Positions 15,055 to 23,779 of a stretch of DNA of 64,000 nucleotides are shown here, piece by piece. Both the position numbers and the translations under genes were made by a program. The notes under the pieces are model-generated. The model saw only the letters and a list, made by a program, of their open reading frames with translations. It did no database searches and was not told where the DNA came from. Position 1 is the first letter of the stretch, and the number at the start of each line of letters is the position of its first letter. Origin of the DNA: Lysobacteraceae bacterium (GTDB taxonomy: Bacteria; Pseudomonadota; Gammaproteobacteria; Xanthomonadales; Xanthomonadaceae); contig JAGWUF010000006.1 of NCBI GenBank assembly GCA_028868545.1, positions 1 through 64,000 of the forward strand, given 5' to 3'.

Positions 15055-18000
15055 TCATTGTTCCTTGCGCCAGTTCAACGAAGCGCGGTTTTCCACGGTG
15101 GAGGATTCGACCTGGACCGCGAAACCCTTGCGCAGCAGGTATTTCAGCGTCATCACCTGGCCGGTGCCCAGCAGCGACACGCCATAGCCCACGTACAACC
15201 TGGGCGAGAGGTATTTGCCCACGCTCAGCACATCGCCACCCAGCGCGCGCGATTCGTTCACGCCGGCATCATCCAGCCCCAGCCGCGCGCCCAGTTCCGC
15301 CGCCAGCAGCCCGCTGCCGGCATTCAAGGCCGCCTTGGCCGTGCCCAGCTGGCGTGCTTCATTGCCGGACAGGGTGGACAACGGCCGCCCCAGCGTGAGG
15401 TAAGCCAGCGCCTCGGATTCGCTTTTGGCAGGCACCGAATAGACCGTGGCCTTCGGTGCCTGCGCCCGGCCCTCCACCCGGATGCCGGCAGTGACATCGC
15501 CCACGTTGCGCTCGGCGCGGATGTCCAGCAGCGGGTCGTCGATCGGCGTATTCGCCCAGCGCAGGCCGCCGCGCGTGATCTGCAGGTTCTGGCCATAGGC
15601 GCGGTAACGGCCTTCGACCTGCAGCGCACCATTGCCCAGCGCTTCCCGGCCCGGCTGCACGCGCACCCGCACGCTCCCGTCCAATCGGCCTCGCAGGCCA
15701 TAGCCATCCACCTGCACGGCCTTGCCCATCTGCACGTTCAGATCCATGTCGAGCGCCGTGCGGGTATTGCCCTGACCGGGGTCTGCCGGGTCCAGCACCA
15801 CCACATCCGACGACGGTGACACCCCCATGTCGAGGCGCTCCAGATGGATGTCGGCTTGCGAGATCGTGACCTGGCCGCGCAACTGCACGGGTTGCCCGGC
15901 GCGATAGCGCAAGCTCAGATCGGGATCGACCACCGCATGCAGTTGCCGGGTGTCCGCCAGCAGCACCTTGCTGCCGCGCAGGGCCAGCACCAGCGGCGTG
16001 TCGTCGCTGCGCCAATCCAGCTGGCCATCCACCTGCAGGACACCGTCACCGGCCCCCACCTGCCCGCTGAGGCGGGCACTGCCGTCATCGCCGGCCTGCA
16101 GCCGCAGGTCGCCATCGTGCAGGCCGGTGCCCAGCGCCGGCAATTCGGCGGCAAAGGCCTGCAGCCGGCCATTGCCGCCCAGCAGGGGCTGCCCGCGCGT
16201 GCCGGCCAGATGCATGTCCAGATCGAGCTGCCCACGCGGGGCGACGATGTCGGGTGACAGCAATTCCATCCAGGTCAGGGCGCGGGTGCCAAGCGTCAGG
16301 CGGCCTTGCAAGGGGGCGTGCGCCTCCCAGCCGGTCGCGATCCGCGCTTCGAGCTGGCCGGCCTGATCCAGGCCTGTCGTCAACTCCGCCTCGATGCGGT
16401 GCGCATCGAACCGGGTCGCCAAGGCCAGGTTGCGATACCCCAGCAGATCCCGGCGGGCACGCGCACGGTTGCGCAGCCCGCCTTCGGCCGAAGTGAGGTG
16501 GGCCGTGCCTTGCCAAGCGGCACCTGCCGGCATCAGGCTTGCCCGCACGCCGACCTCGCCATGCACCACCCACGGCTTGCCATCGCTGCCGACCGGCAAG
16601 TAGGGCGTCAGCAACGTCAGTGGCAATTGGCTGCCCTGCACCTGCAGCCCACGGCGGGGCCAATCGACATCCGTGCACAGAGTGCCGCCACCGCCTGCCT
16701 GCAGGCAGGCCTGTGCCTGCACGACGTTCCCCCCCTGCCACGCCCAGTGCGCCGGCTGTTGCAGTGCCCAGCGGGCACCGGTGCCCGGCTGCAACTGCAA
16801 CCGGGTCAGGCTGCCCTGCCAGCGCGCAGCTTGTCGCTGGGCCGTGCCTGCCAGCGCCAGCTGGCCCTGCGGGCTGCCGGCCTCGGCCGCCAGCTGCAAG
16901 TGCTCCACCGCGCCGCGCAGCTGCGCGCGCACGGTGGTCAGTGGCACGCCCAGCTGCAGGCCACTGGCTTCCAGTGCCAGGTTGCCACTGCCGCTGCGCC
17001 ACGGCAGCTGGCCACGGGCGTGCAGCCGCTCGGCGCGATAGCTGCCGAATGCCAGGCCATCACCGTTCAGATCGACCACCAGATCCGGCGCATCGCGTGG
17101 GCCTTGCAGGTGCACGCGCCCGCGCAGCGCGCCTTGCCCGCCCGGCAGCAGATCCGGCAGCCGCAGCGGCGAAAACTGCGCGTCCAGCACCAGCCGCGCA
17201 CCCAGCTCGCCGCGCGCGGTCAGCGTGCTTTGCCCCAGCGTGAGGGCGGCATCGCCACGGTATTGCACGCCATCCACCTGCAATTGCGCATGCCCGGCCA
17301 GTGCTCGGCCGCGCAGGCTGCCGCCGAGTTCCTCCAGTTGCACCTGCAGCAACAAACCGGCCGCACCCGACCGTTGCTGTCCGTCGACCTGCAACCGGCC
17401 CTGCACCTTGCCCGGCCAATCAGGCGCGAAATACCCCGGATCGAAACCCGCCAACTGCGCCTGGGCCTGCCACTGCAGCCGCGGCGACCACGTCAGCGCG
17501 CCACTGGCCTGCAACTGGCCCTGCGGCATGCTGGCGTGCAGGGCCCGCAGCTGCAGGCCGTCGCGATCGCCCACACCATCCAGCACCAGGGTTGCGCTGT
17601 CCTGGCCGCGTTGCAGCCTGGCGGTGCCGGTGGCCGTCCAGCGCGCCAAGCCGCCTGCCAGCTTGAAATCGCCATTGCCGAGGATGTCGATCCGGCCATC
17701 GCCGCTGCGCCAATGCAGATCGCGCGCAGCCAGCTGCAAGGCCAGCGTGGCGTGTTTTGGATCGGCCAGTTCGGCCTTGCCCTCGGCGCGGATGCGCCCA
17801 CCCAGCACCTCCACCAGCAAGGGCTGCACCGTCACGGTCTGTTGCGCCAGCCGCAGCCGCGAAGGCTGCACCACCAGCACCTGTTCGCCGCGCTGAAGCC
17901 GACCCTGCAACGTGGCTTCACCGCCCTTGCCGGTCAGCATCAACTGCAGCGCCAGCGGCGTGGAGGTCTGTCCGCGCGCGGCCAGCAGTGCCGGATCCAG

Positions 18001-18849
18001 CGCCGTGCTGTCGGCTCGCAGCCGCCACTGCGGCGTGGTTCCGCCCTGCAGCCGCAGATGGGCGTGCAGGGGTGCTGGGGCGTGGCCTTCCAGCGTGGCC
18101 TGCAGATCCGACAGATCGCCGCGGACGCGCACTGCCAGCCGTGGCGCGCCGTGGCCGGCGGGTGCGGGCAACACGGCACTGGCCTGCAGCGCGCTGCGGT
18201 AGTTGTCACGCGGGCGGTAATCACCCTGCAGGGTGAACCGGCCACGATCGCTGTCCAGCGTCAGCGCCTGCACATGCAACGCCCCCGGTGCCAGCACCAC
18301 GCCTCCGCGCAAGCGTTGCAACGTGATCAGACGTTCCTCCTGACGCTGGATCACGACATGATCCAGCCGCACGGCATCGGCCTGCACGGTCAACGGCAGA
18401 TCCAGCACTGGCAGCACGTCCGGCCATTGCGGCAGCTTGAAGCGGCTGTCGTCGGGCGGAAGTTGCAGCCGGGCGTCGGTCACCGTCAGGGTTTGCAGTT
18501 GCAGGGTGCGCGTCAGCAAGGGCAGCCAGCGCAGCTGCAGGCCGAGACGGGCGGCTTCGAAACGCAGCATCCCCATGGCACACGGCGCATGTGGTTGCGG
18601 CACGCAATCGGCATCGCGCTGCAGCGGCCAGGACAGCTGCACCGCGTGCAGGGTCAACGGGTCGGACAAGGTGCCTTCGACCTGCTGCCAGTGCAGTTCG
18701 CTGCCTGCCGGCAATTGCGCCTGCAGCTGCCCCAGCAGCCAGTCGCGGCCGTGCGTGCTGTGCAGCAGCCAGTACAACGCCAGCCCCGACAACACCGCCA
18801 GCACCAGCACCGCGATGGCGGTCCGTCGCAACCACGCACGCCATTTCAC
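15055..18849 (-). CDS. tamB: Translocation and assembly module inner-membrane component TamB
   Basis: 1264 residues, a normal size for TamB. The N-terminus has one membrane anchor (AIAVLVLAVLSGLALYWLL) followed by the DRDWLLGQLQ-like start typical of AsmA/TamB proteins. The long middle is repetitive beta structure that forms a hydrophobic groove. The conserved C-terminal DUF490/TamB domain (about 950-1264) has LTLGRPLSTLSGNE and VGKYLSPRLYVGYGVSL. TamB spans the periplasm and works with TamA in outer-membrane protein insertion or phospholipid transport. It lies 10 bases downstream of tamA. Confidence 0.95.
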   Translation of the reverse strand: MKWRAWLRRTAIAVLVLAVLSGLALYWLLHSTHGRDWLLGQLQAQLPAGSELHWQQVEGTLSDPLTLHAVQLSWPLQRDADCVPQPHAPCAMGMLRFEAARLGLQLRWLPLLTRTLQLQTLTVTDARLQLPPDDSRFKLPQWPDVLPVLDLPLTVQADAVRLDHVVIQRQEERLITLQRLRGGVVLAPGALHVQALTLDSDRGRFTLQGDYRPRDNYRSALQASAVLPAPAGHGAPRLAVRVRGDLSDLQATLEGHAPAPLHAHLRLQGGTTPQWRLRADSTALDPALLAARGQTSTPLALQLMLTGKGGEATLQGRLQRGEQVLVVQPSRLRLAQQTVTVQPLLVEVLGGRIRAEGKAELADPKHATLALQLAARDLHWRSGDGRIDILGNGDFKLAGGLARWTATGTARLQRGQDSATLVLDGVGDRDGLQLRALHASMPQGQLQASGALTWSPRLQWQAQAQLAGFDPGYFAPDWPGKVQGRLQVDGQQRSGAAGLLLQVQLEELGGSLRGRALAGHAQLQVDGVQYRGDAALTLGQSTLTARGELGARLVLDAQFSPLRLPDLLPGGQGALRGRVHLQGPRDAPDLVVDLNGDGLAFGSYRAERLHARGQLPWRSGSGNLALEASGLQLGVPLTTVRAQLRGAVEHLQLAAEAGSPQGQLALAGTAQRQAARWQGSLTRLQLQPGTGARWALQQPAHWAWQGGNVVQAQACLQAGGGGTLCTDVDWPRRGLQVQGSQLPLTLLTPYLPVGSDGKPWVVHGEVGVRASLMPAGAAWQGTAHLTSAEGGLRNRARARRDLLGYRNLALATRFDAHRIEAELTTGLDQAGQLEARIATGWEAHAPLQGRLTLGTRALTWMELLSPDIVAPRGQLDLDMHLAGTRGQPLLGGNGRLQAFAAELPALGTGLHDGDLRLQAGDDGSARLSGQVGAGDGVLQVDGQLDWRSDDTPLVLALRGSKVLLADTRQLHAVVDPDLSLRYRAGQPVQLRGQVTISQADIHLERLDMGVSPSSDVVVLDPADPGQGNTRTALDMDLNVQMGKAVQVDGYGLRGRLDGSVRVRVQPGREALGNGALQVEGRYRAYGQNLQITRGGLRWANTPIDDPLLDIRAERNVGDVTAGIRVEGRAQAPKATVYSVPAKSESEALAYLTLGRPLSTLSGNEARQLGTAKAALNAGSGLLAAELGARLGLDDAGVNESRALGGDVLSVGKYLSPRLYVGYGVSLLGTGQVMTLKYLLRKGFAVQVESSTVENRASLNWRKEQ

Positions 18850-18859
18850 GCCGGCCCCC

Positions 18860-20698
18860 TCACAAGTCCGCCCCGATGTTCAGATGCAGGGTGAAGGGCG
18901 ATTCCGGCGTGTTCAGCCCGCGCGCAACGTCTATGCGCACGGGGCCCACCGGCGAGCGCCAACGCAAACCGATGCCCACGCCGGTGTGCAGGTCGATGGC
19001 GCGGCCATTGAAGGCGCTGCCGGTATCCACGAACACGGCGGCCCCCCAGGGGCCGTTGAAGTAGCGTTCGAGCTCGGCACTGGCCGTCACCACGCTGGTG
19101 GCACCCACGGCAAACGGCTGGCCCAGGCTGTTGCGGATCCGCGGGCCGATTTCACGCCAGCCATAGCCACGCACGCTGCGGTCACCACCGGCGAAAAAAC
19201 GCAGGCTGGGTGGCAGATCCAGCAAGTCACCGGTGAAGGTGCGACCGGCTTCACCGCGCAGCAGCAGGCGGGTATCGGCATCGAACCCGTGGAACCACTG
19301 CGCGCTGGCATGCAGCTGGGTGAAGCTGGTGGCATTGCCCCTGCCGCCGCGTACGGTCAGGCTGGCACCCGCGCCGCGCCGGGGCGCCATGCGGTCATCC
19401 ACATCGATGTAGTCGGCGCGCAGTTCGGGAAACAGGAAACTGGCGTACTGGTACACCCCCGCCGGCTTGTTCACGGTGAAGTACGACCAGCGCTCGCGCA
19501 GCACGTGCGCGGATGCCACCAGGTTGAGATGGCGATTGAATTGACCGCTGCGACTGGCCACGAATTCCAGCCGCCGGTTGTCCAGCGAATCGGTCTGTTC
19601 GTCGGCGGCCTGCAGGCTGGCGGTGTACCAGCCATCGCGCCAGGCGAAAGCCGGCACCCGATATTGCACGGTGGCGGTCTTGCGCTGGTTGCCCCAGTCG
19701 ATCTGCGCCAGCGCCTTGTGGCCGCGCTGATTCAGGTAGCGGCGCTCCAGACCGGCACGGAAGCCGGCGCCGCTGCGGGTGCCGTAACTGAGCCCGAAAT
19801 CGAAAATGCTGCGCGGCGCCGGCGTCAGGTTGACCTGCACCGGCACCTGCTTGTCCTGCGCGTTTTCAGGCTGCGCCGTCACATCCACCAGCCCGAAATA
19901 ATCCAGCGCCGCCAGCGAGCGCCGCAGCCGTTCCAGTGCGTCCGCATCGTAGGCATCGCCGGGCGTCCAGCCCACCAGTCCGTGCAGGATCGACGCCCGG
20001 ATCACCGGCTCGGGGGTCTGCACGAACACCGCCTCACCCAGGCGGTAGCGTTGCCCGCCCTGCCAGCGCACGTCGATGTCGGCAGCATGATCGGCGCGGG
20101 TGACCCGTACCTCGCGGGTGATGAAGTCGGCATCGAAATACCCCTGCGCCGCCAGCACGCGGTTCACCCGCGTCTTGCTGGCCTCGTAATCGGAATGCAC
20201 CAGCACGGCACCCGGCTGCGGCCGGAACGCGGCAACCGCAGCGCGGACGGCAGCATCCTCGCCGGCCGTTCCCGCCACGGCGACCTGCAGACTGCGCACG
20301 TGCACCGGCGCGCCGGGCTCGATGCGGATCTGGATGCTGAGGCTGGCGGCATCGCCCGTCTCGTCTCCGACGTCGACCTGCGCCGCGGCCTCCGTGTCCG
20401 CAGCGTCCCGATCGGCGGGCACCGCCACCCGGTCACTGCGTGTGATCGTGATCACCGGCGCGTAATAGCCGAACGGTTCCAGTGCCTCGCGCGTCTGCTG
20501 CTGCGCCTGCTGCAACAGGAGATCCAGGCGCCGCCGGGTCAGCGGCTTGCCCACGGCATCCTGCACCGCCAGCGCGCTGCGCACGTTGTCGATCAGGCGC
20601 GCATCGTCGGTGCCGCTGATCTCGACACGCGTCACCGTGACCGCCGTTGCCGGCAGCGCCAACAGCAAGAACACGCAGCAAGTCAGCAGGCGACGCAT
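18860..20698 (-). CDS. tamA: Translocation and assembly module outer-membrane component TamA (Omp85 family)
   Basis: 612 residues from the ATG at 20698, chosen because the signal peptide starts MRRLLTCCVFLLLALPATA and GGAGA lies 12 bases upstream. An in-frame ATG at 20710 and the track start at 20767 are less likely. Three POTRA-like repeats cover about 25-270. The C-terminal 16-strand barrel carries the Omp85 loop-6 motif in VRGYGWREIGP and FVDTGSAF. It partners TamB, encoded immediately downstream. The candidate sRNA is transcribed towards it from the right. Confidence 0.94.
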   Translation of the reverse strand: MRRLLTCCVFLLLALPATAVTVTRVEISGTDDARLIDNVRSALAVQDAVGKPLTRRRLDLLLQQAQQQTREALEPFGYYAPVITITRSDRVAVPADRDAADTEAAAQVDVGDETGDAASLSIQIRIEPGAPVHVRSLQVAVAGTAGEDAAVRAAVAAFRPQPGAVLVHSDYEASKTRVNRVLAAQGYFDADFITREVRVTRADHAADIDVRWQGGQRYRLGEAVFVQTPEPVIRASILHGLVGWTPGDAYDADALERLRRSLAALDYFGLVDVTAQPENAQDKQVPVQVNLTPAPRSIFDFGLSYGTRSGAGFRAGLERRYLNQRGHKALAQIDWGNQRKTATVQYRVPAFAWRDGWYTASLQAADEQTDSLDNRRLEFVASRSGQFNRHLNLVASAHVLRERWSYFTVNKPAGVYQYASFLFPELRADYIDVDDRMAPRRGAGASLTVRGGRGNATSFTQLHASAQWFHGFDADTRLLLRGEAGRTFTGDLLDLPPSLRFFAGGDRSVRGYGWREIGPRIRNSLGQPFAVGATSVVTASAELERYFNGPWGAAVFVDTGSAFNGRAIDLHTGVGIGLRWRSPVGPVRIDVARGLNTPESPFTLHLNIGADL

Positions 20699-20766
20699 CG
20701 ACAAGGCCATTCTCCGAGAATAGCGGCACCTCGCTGCTTGGCAACTGCAACCTGCGCAACGAACCA

Positions 20767-20888
20767 ATAAAAAGCCCCGCAGCCAGGGGGGGGCTGCGGG
20801 GCCGGGGAAGGGCGGTTGGGGAGGACCGTCACCTTCCGGGTGATCACTACCAGGGGAGGGGTTGTGATCTGCAACAGGCGTTGCACCT
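20767..20888 (-). ncRNA. Candidate sX13-like small RNA with three C-rich loops
   Basis: Read on the minus strand, about 120 nt fold into consecutive hairpins. GCAAC-gcct-GTTGC comes first, then GATCAC...GTGATC with loop AACCCCTCCCCTGGTA, then GGAAGG..GGT / ACC..CCTTCC with loop CCTCCCCA. Last is a terminator stem CCCCGCAGCC / GGCTGCGGGG with a C-rich loop and TTTTTATT. Three exposed C-rich loops and a position between polA and the next gene match my memory of sX13, a 115-nt virulence sRNA of Xanthomonas. C-rich loops pair with G-rich ribosome-binding sites. There is no conserved ORF. The 5' end is inferred from a TATACA box at 20900-20895. Confidence 0.72.
20769..20802 (-). terminator. Terminator of the sRNA
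   Basis: An 11-bp perfect stem (GCCCCGCAGCC 20774-20784 with 20792-20802), 7-base loop, and five T followed by ATT on the minus strand. Confidence 0.85.
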
Positions 20889-20894
20889 GTTGCG

Positions 20895-20900
20895 TGTATA
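20895..20900 (-). promoter_or_regulatory. Possible -10 box of the sRNA
   Basis: TATACA on the minus strand lies about 7 bases before the proposed 5' end. No good -35 hexamer is visible at 16-18 bases, so an activator may be needed. Confidence 0.4.
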
Positions 20901-20940
20901 TGACCATTTCCTACCTTGCTGGTTCGTGAAGATTTCAGTT

Positions 20941-21037: not shown

Positions 21038-23779
21038 TCAGTGCGCTTCTTCCCAGTTTTTCCCGCTGCCGGCATCCACCACCAGCGGCACCCGCAACTG
21101 CGCCACGCCGGTCATCAAACCCGGCACCTGCGCCAGCAACTCGGGCACGAAGGCTTCATCCGCTTCGAACACCAGTTCGTCGTGCACCTGCATCAGCAGC
21201 AGCGCACGCGCGCGGTGCGTGGCCAGCCAGCCGTCCACCGCCACCATCGCCTTCTTGATGATGTCGGCGGCGCTGCCCTGCATCGGCGCGTTGATCGCGG
21301 CGCGCTCGGCACCCGCACGTTGCGCGGCGTTGCGCGCGTGGATGTATTCCAGCCGCAGGCGGCGGCCGAACACGGTTTCCACGAAGCCCTGCGCACGTGC
21401 TTGTTCGCGGGTGCGCTCCATGTAGTCACGCACGCCGGGATAACGGGAAAAATACAGCGCGATGTAGTCCTGCGCCTCGCCGCGGGTGACGCCCAATTGC
21501 CGGGCCAGCCCGAATGCGCCCATGCCGTAGATCAGGCCGAAATTGATGGCCTTGGCGGCGCGGCGCTCGTTCGCGCTGACCTCCTCCAGCGACGTCTTGC
21601 CGAACACCTCGGCGGCGGTCGCGCGGTGGATGTCGGCGCCGTGCGCGAACGCCGCCAGCAGCGCGGCATCCTGCGACAGGTGCGCCATGATCCGCAATTC
21701 AATCTGCGAATAGTCGAACGCCACGATCCGGCGCCCCTCCGGCGCGATGAACGCGGTGCGGATGCGCCGGCCTTCCTCGCTGCGCACGGGAATGTTCTGC
21801 AGGTTGGGATCGGTTGACGACAACCGCCCCGTTGCCGCGCCGGCCTGGTGGTAGCTGGTGTGCACGCGGCCGGTGGCGGGGTTGACCATCTCCGGCAGCT
21901 TGTCGGTGTAGGTGCTGCGCAACTTGGCGAAGCCGCGATAGTCCAGGATCAGGCGCGGCAGTTCGTGCTGGTCGCTGATCGCCTCCAGCGCTTCTTCGTT
22001 GGTCGACGGCGCGCCGCCCGGGGTCTTCACCAATGCCGGCAATTTCAGCTCGTCGAACAACAGTGCGCCGAGCTGCTTGGGCGAATCCAGGTTGAAGCTG
22101 CGTCCGGCCAGCGCGTAGGCACGCTGCTGCGCGTCCAGCATGCGGCGGGAAAGATCGGCCGACTGCCGGCGCAATTCGGCGGCGTCGACCAGCACGCCGT
22201 TCTCCTCGATCCGCGCCAGCACCGGCACCAGCGGCATTTCGATGTCGCGATAGACCTGCGCCAGGGTGGGTTCGGCGGCGAGTTTTTCCCGCAGCACATG
22301 GTGCAGGCGCAGGGTGATGTCGGCATCTTCGGCCGCGTAGCGGGTGGCAGTTTCGACTTCGACCTGCGAAAACGGAATCTGCTTCGCGCCCTTGCCCGCC
22401 ACGTCTTCGAACTTGAGCGTGGCGTAGCCCAAGTGCCGCTGCGCCAGCGAATCCATGTCGTGGCGGGCGATGCCGGCATCCAGCACGAAGCTTTCCAGCA
22501 GGGTGTCCTCGGCATAGCCTTGCACATCGATGCCGTGCCGATGCAGCACATGCAGGTCGTATTTGCCGTTCTGGCCCAGCTTGGGCGTGCGCGGATCTTC
22601 CAGCAGCGGACGCAACGCCTCGCGCACCGGCGGCCACGGCAGTTGCGCCGGCGCATCGGGGGCCAGGTGGCCCAGCGGAATGTAGCAGGCCTTGCCCGCT
22701 TCCACGCTCAGGCTGATGCCGACCAGGTTCGCGCGCAACGCATCCAGCGCGTCGGTTTCGGTGTCGAACGCGATCAACGACGCGGCGTGCAGGCGCTGCA
22801 CCCACGCATCCAACTGCGCCGATGTCAGTACTGTCTCGTAATCGCCCGGCGCGGCCAGCACGGCATCCACGACCGCAGGCGCGGGCGCGGGGTCGGCCAC
22901 GTCGCGCGCAGGCGTGCGTGCGGCCGCGACACTGCCACCGTCGAGCTCCTTCAGCGCCTGGTTGAACCCGTAGCGGGCATACAGCGTGCGCAGTGCATCC
23001 GTGTCACGCTCGCGCAAGGCAAGGTCCGCGGGTGCTTCCGGCAGCGCCACGTCGGTCTTGATCGTCACCAGCGTGCGGTTCAGCGGCAATCGCGGCAACG
23101 CGGCGCGCAGGTTGTCGCCGATCTTGCCCTTGATCGCATCAGCATTGGCGATCACGCCGTCGAGGCTGCCGTATTCCGCCAACCATTTGGCGGCGGTCTT
23201 CGGCCCGCATTTCTCCACCCCCGGCACGTTGTCGACGGTGTCGCCCATCAGCGCGAGAAAATCGACGATCTGGTCGGCGCGCACGCCGAACTTCTCGATC
23301 ACCGCCGCGTCCGAATCCAGCCGGCTGCCGGTCATGGTGTTGACCAAGGCGACGCCCGGCGCCACCAGCTGCGTGAAATCCTTGTCGCCGGTGGAAATGG
23401 TGACCGCCATGCCCTGCGCCGCACCCTGCACCGCCAGCGTGCCGATCACGTCGTCGGCCTCCACCCCGGTTTCGCGCAGGATCGGGATGCCCAGCGCCGC
23501 CACGATCTCCAGCATCGGCGCGATTTGCGCGCGCAAGTCATCGGGCATCGGCGGGCGCTGCGCCTTGTACGCGGGGTACAGCGCATCGCGGAAGGTCGGC
23601 CCCGGCGCATCCACCACGAAGGCGATGTGCTCGGGCTTCTCCTTCAGGTGGCCGCGCAGCATGTTGACCACGCCGAACAGCGCGCCGGTGGGCTCGCCGG
23701 CCGCGTTGCTCAGCGGCGGCAGCGCGTGGAAGGCGCGGTAGAGGTAGGAAGAACCGTCGATCAGGACCAGGCGTGTCAT
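21038..23779 (-). CDS. polA: DNA polymerase I
   Basis: 913 residues with all three activities. The 5'-3' exonuclease covers about 1-290 (LIDGSSYLYRAFHALP, GVEADDVIGTLA). The 3'-5' proofreading domain covers about 310-490 with intact FDTETDALD, NGKYDLHVL and YAAEDADITLRL. The polymerase domain runs from about 530 to the end with motif A FDYSQIELR, O-helix RRAAKAINFGLIYGMG and motif C QVHDELVFE. It acts in repair and Okazaki fragment maturation. Proofreading appears functional, unlike in some bacterial PolA proteins. Confidence 0.98.
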   Translation of the reverse strand: MTRLVLIDGSSYLYRAFHALPPLSNAAGEPTGALFGVVNMLRGHLKEKPEHIAFVVDAPGPTFRDALYPAYKAQRPPMPDDLRAQIAPMLEIVAALGIPILRETGVEADDVIGTLAVQGAAQGMAVTISTGDKDFTQLVAPGVALVNTMTGSRLDSDAAVIEKFGVRADQIVDFLALMGDTVDNVPGVEKCGPKTAAKWLAEYGSLDGVIANADAIKGKIGDNLRAALPRLPLNRTLVTIKTDVALPEAPADLALRERDTDALRTLYARYGFNQALKELDGGSVAAARTPARDVADPAPAPAVVDAVLAAPGDYETVLTSAQLDAWVQRLHAASLIAFDTETDALDALRANLVGISLSVEAGKACYIPLGHLAPDAPAQLPWPPVREALRPLLEDPRTPKLGQNGKYDLHVLHRHGIDVQGYAEDTLLESFVLDAGIARHDMDSLAQRHLGYATLKFEDVAGKGAKQIPFSQVEVETATRYAAEDADITLRLHHVLREKLAAEPTLAQVYRDIEMPLVPVLARIEENGVLVDAAELRRQSADLSRRMLDAQQRAYALAGRSFNLDSPKQLGALLFDELKLPALVKTPGGAPSTNEEALEAISDQHELPRLILDYRGFAKLRSTYTDKLPEMVNPATGRVHTSYHQAGAATGRLSSTDPNLQNIPVRSEEGRRIRTAFIAPEGRRIVAFDYSQIELRIMAHLSQDAALLAAFAHGADIHRATAAEVFGKTSLEEVSANERRAAKAINFGLIYGMGAFGLARQLGVTRGEAQDYIALYFSRYPGVRDYMERTREQARAQGFVETVFGRRLRLEYIHARNAAQRAGAERAAINAPMQGSAADIIKKAMVAVDGWLATHRARALLLMQVHDELVFEADEAFVPELLAQVPGLMTGVAQLRVPLVVDAGSGKNWEEAH

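Follow-up and report, generated by a model that had tools for sequence, protein, structure and literature searches.

The window analysed here (64,000 nucleotides of contig JAGWUF010000006.1 from a Lysobacteraceae bacterium) carries the small RNA (sRNA) gene sX13 at positions 20768-20882 of the minus strand, as delimited by the Rfam family RF02232. Immediately upstream is polA (21038-23779, minus strand), which encodes a DNA polymerase I of 913 amino acids with the Pfam domains DNA_pol_A, 5_3_exonuc_N and DNA_pol_A_exo1. The sRNA gene begins 155 bp beyond polA on the same strand (20882 versus the polA stop at 21038), in agreement with the first-pass annotation, which had placed it downstream of polA. 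The next gene downstream is tamA (18860-20713, minus strand, assigned by Pfam to Omp85/POTRA), separated from sX13 by 55 bp and followed by tamB (15055-18849). Among the loci checked, tamA and tamB (15055-20713) lie directly 3′ of sX13 in this genome only, and tamA was not found beside sX13 in the other 64 sX13 loci checked.

The RF02232 match is full-length (model positions 1-115 of 115) and scores 69 bits, above the gathering score of 50 bits (cmscan, E 9e-11); it is the sole above-threshold Rfam match in the 64 kb, and a search of the whole genome (2.65 Mb, 117 contigs) recovered one sX13 copy. The 115-nt RNA, read from 20882 to 20768 on the minus strand, has a predicted folding energy of -53.1 kcal/mol (z = -6.2), and none of 200 shuffled sequences was equally stable. 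Its secondary structure consists of three successive minus-strand hairpins, the first two defined by the fold together with the Rfam alignment: hairpin 1 (20842-20869) with the C-rich loop CCUCCCCU at 20852-20859, hairpin 2 (20806-20837) with the C-rich loop CCUCCCCA at 20817-20824, and hairpin 3 (20773-20803), an intrinsic terminator in which a 12-bp stem closed by the loop CCCCCCU (20785-20791) is followed by the UUUUU tail (20768-20772). An sX13 homologue with three C-rich loops and a perfect terminator had been proposed from the letters of the sequence, and the covariance model and the predicted fold bear out each of these elements; by covariance model, architecture and position, 20768-20882 is an sX13 homologue. 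Schmidtke et al. described sX13 in 2013 as a 115-nt RNA with three C-rich loops that is encoded downstream of polA (PMC3771888). As here, sX13 of Xanthomonas campestris pv. vesicatoria is a single-copy gene at that position with three hairpins, loops of the 4C/4C/5C type and a terminator; in this genome, unlike Xanthomonas, the downstream gene is tamA. The presence of sX13 in this genome is expected and ordinary; the locus, the loops, the G-rich targets and the comparison with Spot 42 were all published in 2013.

With the Rfam model, sX13 is recognised in 24 of 25 genomes of the genus, in 239 of the 249 sampled from the family and in 103 of 250 from the order. In the remaining genus genome (G015), R1, a model built from 31 family sequences, finds a clear copy beside polA (84.6 bits). 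The C-terminus of PolA was found directly upstream of sX13 in 64 of 65 loci. Among 31 aligned sequences the stems covary, with double changes at 14 of 28 pairs; the core of loop 1 and the UCCCC of loop 2 are invariant while the stem of hairpin 2 covaries, and the three stem-loops, their C-rich loops and the terminator are conserved in this set. Other arrangements are also encountered. In one Xanthomonadaceae genome (G047, locus L070) polA is followed by a tandem pair of sX13-like copies (564-686 and 812-927). Four loci (L069, L072, L099 and L105) have an sX13 match away from polA, in two of them about 23-24 kb from it on the same contig, which suggests rearrangement. Matches near polA on the opposite strand (L085, 4254-4368; L186, 1191-1296), or upstream of polA and divergent from it (L090, 4651-4775), are possibly inversions of the sRNA gene.

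Published sX13 has been described as unstructured in its 5′ region, whereas here a conserved fourth stem-loop, GCAACAGGUG-CAA-CGCCUGUUGC, is predicted at 20871-20893 (minus strand, 10 bp). The annotated 5′ end of sX13 falls within the CAA loop between the two arms, which leaves the 5′ arm upstream of it. Across 33 family sequences 98.9% of cells in this hairpin are paired, with double changes at 4 pairs; its covariation score is reached by none of 500 shuffles, and registers slid along the same sequences are 27-51% paired. The hairpin folds in 45 of 45 sequences that include sister families (mean z -3.7), in which the arms have other sequences and the fold is the same, and the 128-nt form of the RNA that contains it has a z of -9.4. 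Because this covarying hairpin straddles the annotated 5′ end, the primary sX13 transcript probably starts about 10 nt further upstream. The published 5′ end (AACGCC...) lies within the proposed 5′ hairpin, which counts against this explanation; that end may be a processed one.

A promoter of the extracytoplasmic function (ECF)/sigma-E type is proposed from the motif spacing in homologues, and is present in a weak form in this genome as a -35-like GAACCA (20920-20925) and a -10-like TCATA (20899-20903), 16 nt apart on the minus strand. This arrangement would place the RNA start at about 20891-20893, the base of the fourth hairpin. The first-pass annotation had taken a TATACA box for the promoter; this hexamer is present at 20895-20900, overlapping TCATA, but its register is probably wrong, since 12 nt separate it from the annotated 5′ end, too many for it to serve as the -10 box of that end, and GAACCA-N16-TCATA with its more upstream start better fits the relatives. 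In a class survey the strict motif GAACTT-N15..17-TC, which we take to be the sigma-E/AlgU promoter form, precedes 20 of 37 sX13 relatives, these strict-motif copies being from outside Xanthomonadaceae (shuffle mean 0.09, maximum 1). A looser form of the motif is found with 24 of the 37 copies (shuffle mean 0.29), and no copy of the 37 has the motif on the reverse strand. The promoter of this genome fits the loose motif and not the strict one, and is closer to the sigma-E form than that of Xanthomonas. An RpoE-family sigma factor is encoded in the genome (TIGR02939, 313 bits). In Xanthomonas loci, assigned as such by very high Rfam scores, a diverged GATCCA occupies the -35 place, which makes sigma-E control less certain for Xanthomonadaceae; for this family the motifs tilt slightly towards a sigma-E-like sX13 promoter.

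Two other readings of the element itself bear on where its RNA begins and whether it is free. The inverted repeat at 20871-20893 might act as a DNA operator at the start site of an RNA that begins at 20882; the published 115-nt sX13 starts at this same point of the alignment (PMC3771888), and a palindrome at a start site is often an operator. An operator would be expected to conserve its letters, but the arms vary in concert across lineages while remaining paired, and in sister families arms of different sequence form the same fold. Moreover, an RNA beginning at 20882 would be separated from TCATA by 16 nt and from TATACA by 12 nt. An RNA hairpin is the likelier form because the letters of the arms change and the pairing is kept, and the operator reading is considered unlikely. 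Far less probable still is that the element is the 3′ untranslated region of polA or the leader of tamA; sX13 shares its strand with both genes and the gap to tamA is short, but the terminator precedes tamA, other sX13 loci have no adjoining tamA, and Xanthomonas shows a free 115-nt RNA (PMC3771888).

Schmidtke et al. stated that sX13 is exclusive to Xanthomonadaceae and asked whether the polA loci of other bacteria encode sX13-like sRNAs (PMC3771888). In genomes outside the order, the Rfam sX13 model gave 11 weak matches; 5 of them follow polA in the same orientation, at distances of up to 205 bp in three cases and up to about 1 kb in the other two. For most of the polA-downstream copies tested outside the family there is no Rfam match, and the R1 model recognises such copies in many other families. 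Among 124 regions downstream of polA, surveyed at nearly one per family, R2, a broader model of 65 sequences, matches 51, and 46 of these matches are on the polA strand; when training members are left out, 20 matches are sense and 5 antisense. In whole genomes, the best R2 match lies in the sense orientation no more than 1.6 kb downstream of polA in 39 of 74 placed genomes outside the family, and in 9 of 44 genomes that were not in training, for which the chance expectation is far less than one. An exact 20-mer from hairpin 2 occurs at 41 places in 84,980 genomes, 23 of these loci having the PolA C-terminus, with Thiogranum, Thiohalobacter, Natronospirales and Chromatiaceae among the organisms named. 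In many families the gene that follows the polA-downstream sRNA is an antisense engB/yihA (TIGR03598), which is absent from beside sX13 in the present genome, where tamA is the downstream gene. These sequence comparisons suggest that dozens of other gammaproteobacterial families have relatives of sX13 a short distance past polA. Two loci of one gammaproteobacterial family have four tandem copies each downstream of polA (L111: 675-777, 891-999, 1094-1206 and 1308-1418; L112: 439-539, 735-828, 1043-1145 and 1258-1369), and most of these copies have a GAAC-type promoter of their own.

The likeness in other families could have arisen by convergence on C-rich loops and a terminator instead of by descent. 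Hairpins rich in C are simple structures, weak matches also come from ar14 and other models, and 31 of the 74 best whole-genome R2 matches are not at polA. Against this, a model built from Xanthomonadaceae places 5 of its 11 outside-order matches in the sense orientation within 1 kb downstream of polA, PolA is present at 23 of the 41 loci that the 20-mer marks in 84,980 genomes, and promoter, 5′ hairpin, loop order and position recur jointly. Convergence is rather improbable, and descent from a common ancestor is preferred.

The sRNA ErsA of Pseudomonas aeruginosa occupies the polA-engB interval (PMC8575079; PA5492/PA5493, PMC8545128), is sigma-22-dependent (PMC7565897) and has three stem-loops. 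It differs from sX13 in the sequence of its first hairpins and in a U-rich linker that pairs with anr, using Hfq. The comparison used the polA loci of two Pseudomonas genomes (L277 and L289); on the Pseudomonas polA locus R1 gave no match and R2 a weak one. The polA-engB interval of Pseudomonas baltica contains GAACTC-N16-TCAGA together with a terminator whose loop is C-rich, and R2 matches it weakly (E 0.008). Two 20-mer matches in L277 and L289 were considered as sRNA candidates and rejected, as neither locus has an R1 match. Common descent of sX13 and ErsA is likely, with thin evidence from the sequence of ErsA itself.

Spot 42 (spf), of Enterobacterales and Vibrionaceae, likewise lies downstream of polA, and the comparison drawn by the first-pass annotation stands for position; it does not extend beyond that, as the Spot_42 covariance model had no match in the 64 kb, where only RF02232 reached threshold. 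To our knowledge Spot 42 has no C-rich loops. Spot 42 needs Hfq and regulates carbon metabolism, and the position of sX13 was compared by Schmidtke et al. with that of Spot 42 and of alpha-r7, an RNA of Alphaproteobacteria that is reported to lie at polA and to have three stem-loops with C-rich motifs (PMC3771888). The sra03 RNA of S. meliloti is flanked by polA (PMC2245857), and the alpha-r14 model (RF02344; ar14) scores below its cut-off on sX13 (30.4 versus 58.8 bits).

Taken jointly, it is reasonably probable that sX13 is the xanthomonad branch of an ancient gammaproteobacterial sRNA family, whose ancestor had the order polA-sRNA-engB, a sigma-E promoter, a 5′ hairpin, two hairpins with CCUCCC and UCCCCA loops and a C-rich terminator loop, that ErsA is a diverged branch of it, and that the primary sX13 transcript has an unreported fourth hairpin.

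In Xanthomonas, repression by sX13 requires G-rich motifs at translation starts, and the targets include hfq, which is repressed mainly through loop 2, and pilH; Hfq is dispensable, and sX13 becomes more abundant in high salt and at 37 C (PMC3771888). A 4G motif at an hfq-like position occurs there in just 5.4% of genes (PMC3771888). Candidate target sites were inspected here in hfq alone. The hfq start of this genome reads CACGGGGAATCC-ATG, with a GGGGA ribosome-binding site at -9. Of the 19 genus genomes with a readable hfq start, 18, this one among them, retain GGGG at -9 to -11 (no start was found in 5 of 24 loci). The match between sX13 and hfq is 5 bp, and hfq orthologues are non-independent observations.

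For this organism we infer the transcription of sX13, its start site and sigma factor, and its pairing with and repression of targets, as follows. From its own promoter just past polA, probably ECF/sigma-E-like, sX13 would be transcribed across 20768-20893 (minus strand) and would stop at its own terminator ahead of tamA. The RNA would consist of the 5′ hairpin and three hairpins presenting C-rich loops, of which UCCCC/CCCC would, by analogy with Xanthomonas, pair with GGGG at a ribosome-binding site or near one and lower translation of the target without a need for Hfq; hfq would be the strongest local candidate. That many mRNAs are regulated in this way is probable, being carried over from the Xanthomonas experiments (PMC3771888). 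As a whole, the explanation as a self-promoted, terminated sX13 with four hairpins that represses by pairing of C-rich loops with GGGG is regarded with high confidence.

To what is known of sX13 this analysis adds a proposed fourth hairpin, a probable sigma-E-like promoter and a broad family of polA-linked sRNAs, and this wider family bears on the 2013 question about sX13-like sRNAs at the polA loci of other bacteria. The proposal makes testable claims, namely a common input through sigma-E (envelope stress), a common output from C-rich loops onto G-rich ribosome-binding sites, and a corrected start for sX13. Up to now sX13 and ErsA have been studied separately, and they could be compared as relatives.
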